Assembly: GCF_016786325.1 (NCBI RefSeq)
Contig: NZ_JADWYU010000101.1
Coordinates: forward strand, 1-64,000
Length of the DNA stretch: 64,000 bases
DNA from: Frankia nepalensis
GTDB lineage: Bacteria; Actinomycetota; Actinomycetes; Frankiales; Frankiaceae
Direction: 5' to 3'
Position 1 is the first letter of the stretch. Each line of letters starts with the position of its first letter. Both the position numbers and the translations under genes were made by a program. This document shows, piece after piece, positions 19,941-33,441 of the stretch. Below the pieces are notes generated by a model. That model was given only the letters and a program-made list of their open reading frames with translations. It had not been told where the DNA came from and made no database searches.

Positions 19941-20194
19941 GCTCCCGTGGATCATGTTCCGCGGCTCCGGATCGCCGGACGGCGTACACATCCGGCGATC
20001 TTCGCCCCACCCCGCCCCGGTCTCCTCGATAGATCGCCAGATCCGTACGAGATTCGGCGACGAAACGGGCAGAAATCGCCGGACGGCGTACACATCCGGC
20101 GATCAAGGAAGTCGCCAGGCCCCCAGCAGGCCAGTGATCATCGGATGTGTACGCGGATCGGCGGTCGAGCGACCCCGGCAAGATCCACGGGAAG
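19941..20194. mobile_element. MITE-like inverted-repeat element, copy R1
   Basis: 254 bp. Outer ends are inverted repeats: CCCGTGGATCATG at 19944 and, on the other strand, CCCGTGGATCTTG ending near 20194 (12 of 13 identical). Inner inverted repeats GCGTACACATCCGGCGATC (19982-20000) and the complement of 20136-20154 match at 17 of 19. A 30-bp block at 19971-20000 is repeated exactly at 20075-20104 and is itself a hairpin (GATCGCCGGA/TCCGGCGATC). No transposase is encoded. The second copy is at 33078-33330. Confidence 0.72.
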
Positions 20195-20198
20195 GACC

Positions 20199-21836
20199 CT
20201 AGGGTCGCGCCACCGCCTGAGGGGCGGGGTGGGACTCGGACGCCGACGGCTCGGGCGACGCGTCCACCCGGTCCGGTGCGGCCTGGCCGGGGCTGCCCGC
20301 CGCGGCGTGCCTGGTCGAGCGCATCTGGAGCTGGGGGAGCGCCCACGCGAGGAGGAAGGCCACCGCGGCGATGGGCGCGGCGACCCAGAACGCCACGTGG
20401 AGCGAGTCGGTGTAGGCGGTGGCGAAGCCGTCGCGCAGGTCCGGCGGGAGGCCGGCGACGACCTGCGGGCTCACCTCGGACGTGGAGAGGCCCTCGGGCA
20501 GTGGGGCGCCGTCGAACGCGGTCGTCAGCTTGTGGGCCAACTGGTTCGCGAAGATCGCTCCCAGGATGGCCGTGCCGAACGAGCCGCCGATCGAGCGGAA
20601 GAACGCCGACCCGGACGTGGCTGCCCCGAGATCGCGGAACTCGACGGAGTTCTGCACCGACACCACCAGCACCGGCATGACCCCGCCCAGGCCGAGACCC
20701 AGCAGCAGCATGTAGACGACGAGCTCGGCCGACGCCATGTCCGGGCTCAGCCGGGCGGCGAGCAGGACCAGCGCCAGGGCCACCAGCGCGGTGCCGACGA
20801 TCGGGTAGGGCTTGTATTGGCCGGTCCGGCTGACGATCCGGCCGGTGATGGTCGACGAGACCAGCATGCCGCCCATCACCGGCAGCAGGTGCAGGCCGGA
20901 CGTGGTCGGCTCGACACCCTTGACGACCTGCAGGAACAGCGGCAGGAACGTGATCGCGCCGAACATCGCGAAGCCCGAGATGAACCCCATCGAGTTCGAG
21001 ATGTTGAACACCCTGTTGGCGAACAGGCGCGGGGGCAGGATCGGTTCGGTCACCCGACGCTCGACGAACCCGAAGGCGACCAGCAGCACGCACCCGCCGA
21101 CGACCAGGCCGATGCTCGCCGCCGAGTCCCAGGCCAGCGTCGTCCCGCCGAGGCTGGTGAACAGCACCAGGGAGGAAGCGGCGCCGGCGAGCAGGACGGT
21201 GCCGAGGTAGTCGATCGACCGCTTCACCCGGTTCGGGCTGGCCGGCAGCACCGCGGTGACGATCATGAAGGCGAGCGCGCCGATGGGCAGGTTGACGTAG
21301 AAGACCCAGTGCCAGCTCAGGTGCTCCACGAACAGGCCGCCGAGCAGCGGCCCGATCACCGAGGCCATTCCGAACAGGCCGCTGAAGACCCCCTGGTAGC
21401 GGCCCCGCTCCCGGGGAGACAGGATGTCGCCGATGATCGTCTGGGCGCCGATGATCAGCCCGCCGCCGCCGAGGCCCTGTAGCCCCCGGAAGGCGATCAG
21501 CTGGCCCATGTTCTGGCTCAGGCCCGCCAGCGCGGAGGCGACCAGGAAGAGGATGATCGCCGCCTGAAAGAAGATCTTGCGGCCGTACAGGTCGCCCAGC
21601 TTGCCCCAGATCGGGGTCGAGACCGTCGAGGCGAGCAGGTAGGCGGTGACGACCCAGGACAGGTGCTGCGCGCCACCGAGGTCGCCAACCATCGTCGGCA
21701 GCGCCGTCGCCACGATCGTCTGGTCGAGCGCGGCGAGCAGCATGCCCGCGCCGAGCGCGGTGAGGATCAGCCCGACCCGCGTCCCGCCCGGGGTTGCCAC
21801 CGGGGCCGTGTCGGCCGACGGGCTTGCCGCTGTCAT
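20199..21836 (-). CDS. MFS drug exporter, DHA2 (EmrB/QacA) type, 14-TM
   Basis: 545 aa from ATG 21836, with AAGGAGACCACC upstream. The first helix leads to [19 protein letters not shown], the DHA2 motif, then [19 protein letters not shown] (motif A) and [22 protein letters not shown], followed by [10 protein letters not shown] (motif C region). Fourteen helices are expected. Such proteins expel hydrophobic drugs by proton antiport. It lies 64 bp behind the TetR gene on the same strand, so the two probably form a unit. It is a clear paralog of the exporter at 22702-24603. Its stop is adjacent to repeat element R1. Substrate unknown. Confidence 0.93.
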
Positions 21837-21900
21837 GGTGGTCTCCTTCGGGCGGGTGGCGGACGGAGCTGGCTGGCGGGCGCGCGTGGGGCGGCCCGGC

Positions 21901-22605
21901 TCAGGGGCCGGCCGTGGCGGCGGGCCGGGCGGCGGGCGCCGGCGCTGACGGCTCGGCCGGTTCCGGCGGGGGCAGGCCGCGGGCGAGGCTGTCGAACCCG
22001 GCACGCAGCTCCGCCGCCAGCCCTTCGGCCGTCGGCTCCACGCCGCGCTGCCAGTGCGTGATCACCGCCCGGACCACGGCCATCGCCGTGAAGACGAGCG
22101 TTCTCGGGTAGGGGTGCTCCTCCGCGGACACGCCGAGCCGCTCGGCGATCACCTCGGCGAGCCGGCGCTCGAAGTGCCGCCAGGTCGCGGCGTGCGCGCC
22201 GGACAGCTGCGGATGGCTGTGGTGCATCTGCACCCGGGCCAGGTGTAGCTGGGGGTTGGCCGTCTTGCGCTCCAGCCGGGCGGTGAGGACCTCGGCGAGG
22301 GCGGCCAGCGGCGGCTGGTTGGCCAGCCGGGCGCGCAGCACGACGCAGGTCTCCTCGATCTCGTCGTTGTCGATCCCGACGAGCGCGTCCTCCTTGGACC
22401 GGAAGTAGTTGAAGAACGTGCGCGGGGAGACGTTCGCGGCCTCGGCGATCTCGTCGACGGTGACCCGTTCCAGCCCGCGGTCGGCGACCAGCCGGACGGC
22501 CGCGTCCCGGATCGCCTGCCGCGTCTGGCGCTTCTTGCGCTCACGCAGTCCCAGCTCGCCGGGCTGGGTCACCCCGGCGGGCGCCGTCGCGTCCAGCACT
22601 TCCAT
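21901..22605 (-). CDS. TetR-family transcriptional regulator
   Basis: 234 aa from ATG 22605, preceded by GGAGGAGGTGGCGGCG; frame-open residues upstream of it look like leader. The N-terminal helix-turn-helix is [20 protein letters not shown] followed by [20 protein letters not shown] and RSKEDAL. The C-terminal ligand-binding region is followed by a Pro/Ala-rich tail. It lies between the two DHA2 exporter genes, all on the minus strand. The same direct repeat, TACAAGTTTGC twice at 17-bp period, occurs about 80 bp upstream of its start and upstream of the second exporter, so it probably represses itself with the first exporter, and the second exporter too. Confidence 0.92.
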
Positions 22606-22685
22606 CGCCGCCACCTCCTCCTGGCCTCGTCCGTCCGCTCCGACGCCGCCGGCCACAGATCGGAACCGCCGGAACGTGCGTGCCC

Positions 22686-32317: not shown

Positions 32318-32365
32318 CGGGATAGTCCAGGGGTCATGGCGGTGGATCGCACGGACGGGTTGACA

Positions 32366-32407
32366 GCGTACAAGCTACGCCTACGCTGGTAGGCGTAGCT
32401 TGTACGC
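32366..32407. promoter_or_regulatory. Perfect 19-bp palindromic operator between TetR and peroxiredoxin-like genes
   Basis: Arms GCGTACAAGCTACGCCTAC (32366-32384) and exact complement (32389-32407), spacer GCTG. On the plus strand TTGACA at 32360-32365 and TACGCT at 32382-32387, 16 bases apart, make a promoter whose spacer lies inside the left arm. Binding there would block transcription of the 32425 gene directly. Confidence 0.8.
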
Positions 32408-32424
32408 CTACAGGTGGAGCCTCG

Positions 32425-33018
32425 ATGTACACACCACGCAACCTTGTCCGGCCCGGCACCCTGATCGCCGCGCGCGAACTGCCGGTGGTCTCCGGGCACC
32501 CCGTGCCGGTCCCCGACCCGGAAGGATTGCTCGTCCACCTGCAGTTCCGCCGCTTCGCCGGCTGCCCGGTGTGCAACCTGCACCTACGGTCGGTCGCCCG
32601 CCGGCACGCGGAGATCGAGGCCGCGGGTGTGCGCGAGGTCGTGGTGTGGCACTCCTCGGCGGACGAGCTCGCGCGCTACACCGCCGAGCTGCCCTTCGCG
32701 GTAGTCGCGGACCCCGACAAGCGCCTCTACACCGAGTTCGGAGTCGAGTCGAGGGCACGCGCGCTGCTGGACCCCCGTGCCTGGTGGCCGATCGCGCGCG
32801 GGGTCGTCCGCTCGGTCTGGGCCGTTCTGCGTGGCAGGGAGCGTTCGCCGGGGCTGCGCCCACACGGCGGCAGCCTCGGGCTACCGGCGGACTTCCTGAT
32901 CGCGCCGACCGGCGAGGTCGTAGCCGTGAAGTACGGCGAGCACGTCTACGACCAGTGGTCCGTCGACGAGCTGCTCGACGCGGTCTCGCGCCGGGGCATC
33001 TTGACCGTGGCCAGCTGA
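32425..33018 (+). CDS. Peroxiredoxin-like (AhpC/TSA) thioredoxin-fold protein
   Basis: 197 aa from ATG 32425, about 40 bp after the predicted -10. The thioredoxin-fold core has LVHLQFRRFAGCPVCNLHLR with C47-P-V-C50, a CxxC in the place of the peroxiredoxin active-site region. EVVVWHSSADELARY and FAVVADPDKRLYTEFGV are typical of the AhpC/TSA-like group that includes selenoprotein-L-like proteins. SLGLPADFLIAPTGEVVAVKYG completes the fold. Expected to be a cytosolic thiol oxidoreductase or peroxidase; the reductant is unknown. Predicted to be under the divergent TetR. Confidence 0.82.
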   Translation: MYTPRNLVRPGTLIAARELPVVSGHPVPVPDPEGLLVHLQFRRFAGCPVCNLHLRSVARRHAEIEAAGVREVVVWHSSADELARYTAELPFAVVADPDKRLYTEFGVESRARALLDPRAWWPIARGVVRSVWAVLRGRERSPGLRPHGGSLGLPADFLIAPTGEVVAVKYGEHVYDQWSVDELLDAVSRRGILTVAS

Positions 33019-33441
33019 GCCGCGGCGCGGTCGGGGCGGTCGGCGCCGGGTCCGGCCATTCCGAAGACGGCTCTCAGCTTCCCGTAGATCATGGTCCGTG
33101 GGCCCGAACCGCCGATCCGCGTACACAATCAGCGATCTTCGTCCCGTCCCCGCCTGGTCTCCTTGGGAGATCGCCAGATGTGTGCGAGATTCGGGGATAA
33201 AACGGACATAAATCGCCGAATGTCGTACACATCTAGTGATTAAGGAAGGTGTTCGGCCTCCCGCGAGTCCATGATCGCCGGATGTGTGCGGGAATTGGGG
33301 GTCGAGCGGCTTTTCAAGATCTACGAGAAGGCTCCTGGCGGTGTTTGGAAGATCCGGCCGACGTGCTCCCGGTCCGGAAAGGCTTTTCAAGATCCAGAAG
33401 AAGGTTCCTGTCGGTATTGGCAGCCGGCCAGGCCGCCGAGG
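33019..33441. other. Intergenic region filled by repeat element R2 and a duplicated end
   Basis: About 420 bp between the peroxiredoxin-like gene and the 3' end of the sigma factor gene. It contains element R2 (33078-33330). The element's right end is duplicated: GGCTTTTCAAGATCTACGAG and following bases (33308-33341) recur as GGCTTTTCAAGATCCAGAAG (33381-33414). No gene is supported. Confidence 0.7.
33078..33330. mobile_element. MITE-like inverted-repeat element, copy R2
   Basis: 253 bp, collinear with R1 (19941-20194) with almost no length change. The ends are CTTCCCGTAGATCATG (33078-33093) and, on the other strand, CTTCTCGTAGATCTTG (33330-33315). Shared internal words include CGATCTTCG, GATCGCCAGAT, GAGATTCGG, GTCGTACACATC and AAGGAAG. 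R2 is more decayed than R1 in the inner hairpins and less GC-rich. No transposase. Confidence 0.7.

Follow-up and report, generated by a model that had tools for sequence, protein, structure and literature searches.

The window analysed here is a stretch of 64,000 nucleotides of Frankia nepalensis DNA, and between its genes lie two copies of a gene-less repeat, R1 (positions 19934 to 20202) and R2 (33070 to 33338). A sequence-only reading of this DNA had described the two as one repeat with outer inverted ends and inner inverted motifs, and this description is upheld: R1 and R2 align end to end with 73% identity, and the inverted features are real in an oriented alignment of 38 copies. That alignment also set the element ends, which lie about 8 bp further outwards on each side than had first been stated. 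Each copy measures 269 bp and is oriented on the plus strand, with R1 running from CTACGACGCTCCCGTGGATC to GATCCACGGGAAGGACCCTAG.

The element is built around four copies, in alternating orientation, of a ~28-bp site, GATCGCC-(N)~17-GGCG, which is an imperfect inverted repeat about a lineage-specific core. An inverted end of ~60 bp (CYANGGNCGCTTCCCGTGGATC...) is followed by site 1 (minus strand), a ~31-bp loop, site 2 (plus), a conserved centre of the GGAYAAAANGGNC type, site 3 (minus), a second loop and site 4 (plus), and this anatomy is common to the copies of the window's own genome and to diverged relatives. In R1, the left terminal inverted repeat arm outside site 1, as delimited by end refinement, occupies 19934 to 19970 (plus). 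Site 1 at 19973 to 20000 (minus) was assigned by pattern match and spacing, and in site 2 at 20032 to 20059 (plus) the GATC lies 35 bp away from the site 1 GATC. The conserved centre at 20060 to 20076 (plus), evident in the alignment, reaches a column conservation of 0.87 over 20061 to 20074. Site 3 at 20077 to 20104 (minus) matches the site pattern, site 4 at 20136 to 20163 (plus) matches the site consensus perfectly, and the right arm at 20164 to 20202 (plus) ends in a CTAG that contains the TAG stop codon (20199 to 20201, minus strand) of the adjoining MFS transporter gene. The sites of R2 are at 33110 to 33137 (site 1, minus, by pattern match), 33169 to 33196 (site 2, plus, by spacing), 33214 to 33241 (site 3, minus, its GATC mutated to GATT) and 33273 to 33300 (site 4, plus, by spacing).

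The geometry of these sites is rigid: in each genome sampled, the majority of copies have GATC-to-GATC distances of 35, 69 (or 70) and 35 bp. Old copies keep the four regularly spaced sites even where their loops no longer align. Mean conservation in the alignment columns of R1 is 0.82 to 0.89 for the sites, 0.73 to 0.77 for the loops and 0.68 to 0.69 for the ends, and both ends have the frequencies C-Y-R, not TA. A search of the window's genome with the site pattern (up to three mismatches) gave 95 matches versus none for a reversed-pattern control, far more than chance would give, and all 95 fall inside known elements, leaving no solitary sites. In the window's genome the core reads TGTGTRCGC; the genus-mate G002 has TGGTATGG or TGCGCAGG, G004 mostly GCAGG, and G003 GGGTATGCG.

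Several finer details of the sequence-only reading had to be modified. The exact 30-bp duplication in R1 exists (19971 to 20000 is identical to 20075 to 20104), but it places the sequence of site 1 in site 3 as a direct repeat rather than forming a hairpin; its two copies cannot pair with each other, their only possible partners being sites 2 and 4, which are inverted. This identity of sites 1 and 3 suggests short-tract conversion. The duplicate of the right end of R2 is likewise real (33381 to 33416, plus, by sequence comparison) but imperfect, and it reaches beyond the element end into flanking DNA. The end fragments proposed at 57815 to 57862 were not recovered, since a full-length profile, run with all filters disabled, detects no element in the window other than R1 and R2 (E<0.01).

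For the sequence-only reading, a scarcity of further copies or a mismatch of their ends would have counted against a non-autonomous element, and neither was observed. We searched the genome, which comprises 10.7 Mb, by BLAST with R1 and R2, then with a profile of the right half, and then with a full-length profile on the regions retrieved. The ~269-bp element occurs with coincident ends in 68 places, of which 51 are near complete, and full-length copies align at 59 to 91% identity (median 71%). The copy closest to R1, on contig C4, is 94% identical by BLAST and 91% identical in the multiple alignment, while the sequences flanking the two are unrelated; therefore, the element was copied or moved as a unit. 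From these comparisons, R1 and R2 are members of a dispersed gene-less element with inverted ends that moved in this manner. Some places hold only solo right-end pieces of ~50 to 90 bp, with the rest of the element absent (L110, L111, L112, L113, L114 and L118). An excess of solo right ends could mean 5′ truncation of the kind left by retrotransposition, and the search profile is itself biased to the right half.

Gene context was taken from a codon-usage gene caller. The gaps that hold copies in the window's genome are convergent in 18 cases, tandem in 36 and divergent in 8, and those of the relatives are convergent in 35, tandem in 30 and divergent in 4. The neighbours are ordinary enzymes, transporters and regulators, with no recurrent neighbouring gene such as a transposase. 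The proposed intergenic siting near stop codons holds for the family. A stop codon falls no more than 12 nt from an element end in 21 of the 68 copies, R1 among them; the right end is concerned in 16 of these and the left in five, 19 show the tight register C-TRR-GG, and no start codon is found at an element end in any of the 68. Such closeness is expected at ~1.3% per end, giving P about 1e-15, an approximate estimate that rests on the gene calls made here. Apart from ABC-type proteins, which are common, the genes that end on elements are mutually unrelated, and the C-termini of their products have a natural appearance.

Other repeats are found in the same neighbourhoods. Just upstream of R1, at 19813 to 19889, lies a distinct, almost perfect hairpin repeat of ~77 bp, ATGATCGGCGATAGTGCCCT...AGGGCAGAAACAGCGATCAT, with GATC at both ends; similar copies are present in L020 and L114 of the same genome and weaker ones in L192, L193 and L207 of G002. 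Two more dispersed repeat families of ~136 to 180 bp, with copies 84 to 93% identical, are located near elements of the window's genome, one at L024 (1810 to 1984), L115 (1977 to 2153) and L116 (3682 to 3859), and the other at L018 (1227 to 1362) and L132 (1902 to 2037). G002 has ~25-bp tandem repeat arrays near elements that are alike between loci (L173, L179, L181 and L172). Elements also form close doublets 300 to 540 bp apart on contig C1 of G002 (146715/147073, 2073960/2074260, 5287050/5287406, 1997468/1997854 and 7262134/7262670), sometimes combining two different site types. For the doublet at L200, the orthologue in G004 has only one of the two elements.

BLAST with R1 gave no match in seven genus-mates. 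Relatives in six of them came to light with a profile that combined copies of the window's genome with diverged ones, the matches at E<=0.001 numbering at least 141 in G002, 83 in G006, 55 in G004, 37 in G005, 23 in G003 and 10 in G001 and none in G007; these counts take in both strands of palindromic elements and are not element numbers. The copies per congener genome range from 0 (G007) and ~10 (G001) up to more than 70. In six further genera of the family, represented by 27 genomes, the profile found no element. A site-consensus search of a collection of genome contigs, which may omit records close to the window's genome, returned one contig of Frankia sp. AgB1.9 and one probable chance match, and the same search of a viral contig collection returned none. 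The distribution is best read as that of a genus-restricted element that persists vertically. The literature searched holds no description of such a four-site element in Frankiaceae, and the family appears to be previously undescribed.

Several element positions are common to different species, and five orthologous pairs in G002 and G004 permit the parts of resident copies to be compared. In these five pairs the sites are 85% identical (424 of 500 positions), the loops 74% and the middle 71%; loops and middle together give 73% (316 of 432), and the difference from the sites corresponds to a hand-calculated z of about 4.4. The whole core is better conserved than the flanking intergenic DNA, and for most of the directly adjoining intergenic flanks alignment has dropped to background level. 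One of the five, the pair L104/L105 in the gap between metG and an MFS gene, differs in all four cores (TATG/TGCG versus TAGG/CAGG type), and its loops can still be aligned and are clearly homologous; this is the one clear pair on which a coordinated core change rests. R1 lies in the same metG-MFS gap and may or may not descend from the same insertion. The better conservation of sites than of loops in resident copies argues for a continuing role of the sites where they stand. Gene conversion between inverted sites could imitate part of this site conservation and core change, as the 30-bp copy in R1 suggests.

Gene neighbourhoods have also been re-paired or inverted around elements between species (L218 versus L005 and L136; L024 versus L094 and L182; L002 versus L093). 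For example, element L218 of G004 sits between neighbours that flank two different elements, L136 and L005, in the window's genome. With neighbours re-paired in this way, elements may be rearrangement points. The R2 locus is empty in G001, G003 and G005, where divergence of the intergenic DNA has gone too far for a junction to be discerned.

The palindromes at gene 3′ ends could in principle represent RNA hairpins belonging to a structured RNA or a transcription terminator, and single copies do have stable predicted folds (z of -3.5 and -4.2). However, good folding of single copies is as expected from palindromic GC-rich DNA, and an RNAalifold consensus of 39 copies has a covariation term of 0.03 kcal/mol, with double changes in only 3 of 24 pairs. 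A permutation test showed that sites within one element are more similar than sites of different elements, mainly because of shared site type; this excess is no smaller for direct than for pairable site pairs and is mostly gone inside the TATG type, and thus no pairing of sites is favored once site type is allowed for. An Rfam scan of the window gave no match, and R1 has no intrinsic terminator pattern. Consensus folding, the site-pair permutation and the Rfam scan lead us to reject a structured RNA family, and we regard any reading in terms of RNA or termination as very improbable. Because they are conserved as sequence without base-pair covariation, the four sites look like binding sites for protein, putatively for a single one.

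The element has what characterizes a MITE, being short, devoid of a transposase gene, bounded by terminal inverted repeats and dispersed in multiple copies with coincident ends. The earlier suggestion of a non-autonomous element is supported by these features, but the regions examined revealed neither a transposase whose ends match nor a longer element sharing these ends; specifically, no autonomous parent with matching ends lies within ~2.7 kb of the solo ends in the draft genome. A target-site duplication is also not detectable among 38 copies by an offset scan with permutation (best z 3.7 among thousands of comparisons), although old copies could have lost one. A known DDE insertion sequence could have given rise to the element by internal deletion, with its transposase moving a derivative that is now decaying, and this would agree with the size, inverted ends, lack of genes, intergenic location and unit-wise spread. 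Such an origin would leave unexplained the missing duplication and parent, and it fits poorly because four regular sites, kept in old copies with unalignable loops and better kept than loops in orthologues, are not predicted by standard MITE decay. We therefore judge this origin improbable. Among particular types, an IS630/Tc1-type MITE (Correia, RUP) was rejected since the ends are C-Y-R rather than showing TA insertion with TA duplication. Tn3-type ends begin with GGGG, and the ends here do not. The end sequence and the test for target-site duplication eliminate a Tn3-derived TIME, as neither the 38-bp Tn3-type ends nor a 5-bp duplication was found.

A lack of target duplication, intergenic palindromes, convergent bias and tandem doublets are all familiar from REP/REPIN or IS200/IS605 (PATE) elements moved by a Y1 HUH transposase. 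No 20-40 bp hairpin tagged GTAG or CGTC is found in the alignments, which rejects REP/REPIN. Moreover, PF01797 is absent from all seven element-bearing genomes, and the lone genus member that has this domain has no elements, which excludes a Y1 HUH enzyme at this sensitivity and makes this origin scarcely conceivable.

A more serious competitor is that the elements are host-beneficial nucleoprotein or chromosome-organising sites, acting in DNA looping, topology or 3′-end insulation, whose past spreading was incidental. The superior conservation of sites over loops in orthologues keeps this reading under consideration, and it is consistent with the conservation of the whole core over flanking DNA, the fixed 35/69/35 spacing, the coordinated core difference in L104/L105, the positions common to species and the siting downstream of genes. 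Against it, the 48 copies listed for the G002 chromosome show no significant departure from uniform spread and no arm-dependent orientation, copy number among congeners varies from 0 (G007) through ~10 (G001) to more than 70, and dispersal in the window's genome was unit-wise. A host role of this kind thus strikes us as possible but unlikely.

On balance, we lean towards a genus-specific non-autonomous mobile element (MITE/BIME-like) that was spread and is kept by a putative multi-site DNA-binding protein. Taken together, the inverted ends, spread as a unit, siting on stop codons and presence of four sites point to a transposition or recombination complex that a trans-acting protein would assemble. 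Each site would bind a dimer of one trans-acting protein, and the four bound sites and two ends would be brought together in a synaptic complex. Either this protein or a partner transposase or recombinase would have placed the element, by copying or moving it, at permissive locations such as stop codons and convergent gaps. As the specificity of the protein drifts between species, the sites of resident copies would follow, and the complex would still need to act in place through continued mobility, recombination or DNA organisation. A bolder version, which we offer only tentatively and consider rather doubtful, holds that the elements are four-site nucleoprotein (or recombination) platforms, present genome-wide and kept functional in place by the host lineage. 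In this version their recognition code would have been revised in a coordinated way, one site after another across dozens of loci, in step with a shift in the specificity of the cognate protein from species to species.

Bacterial MITEs without a known transposase include ERIC/RU-1, YPAL, Correia/NEMIS and RUP, which resemble this element in being short, gene-less, intergenic and lineage-restricted, with inverted ends and tens of copies (PMC2229807). Those in this review with defined ends have terminal TA and target-site duplications, neither of which is seen here, and none is described with four evenly spaced sites of species-differing core (PMC2229807). The CerM-associated intergenic repeats (CIR) of Caulobacter are likewise intergenic and mobile-like and carry a conserved DNA motif rather than a gene, and their mechanism of mobility is unclear; their motif is GANTC, whereas here a ~28-bp site occurs four times at 35/69/35 bp (PMC2229807). 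REP/BIME/REPIN sequences with RAYT are similar in their genome-wide intergenic distribution, bias to convergent or unidirectional gaps, lineage-specific classes and vertical persistence, but a REP is a hairpin of 20-40 bp with a GTAG or CGTC tag, unlike the untagged 269-bp element of carriers without a Y1 transposase (PMC3733652, PMC3116915). TIMEs derived from the Tn3 family share a nearly constant size (262 bp), inverted ends and internal sites speculated to bind a recombinase (res), but have 38-bp Tn3-type ends and 5-bp duplications (PMC4133298), whereas no duplication was found here.

It is a long-standing question how gene-less intergenic repeats manage to last in bacterial genomes for long periods. 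In this family, seven genomes with ~10 to more than 70 copies each, a rigid four-site geometry, species-specific cores and orthologous copies are available, and the co-evolution of dispersed sites with a trans-acting protein is therefore directly testable. The sites appear to be maintained in place and to differ by species, as if tracking a putative DNA-binding protein. A protein of this kind would represent a novel type of factor bound to such elements, and it might act as a recombinase or transposase.
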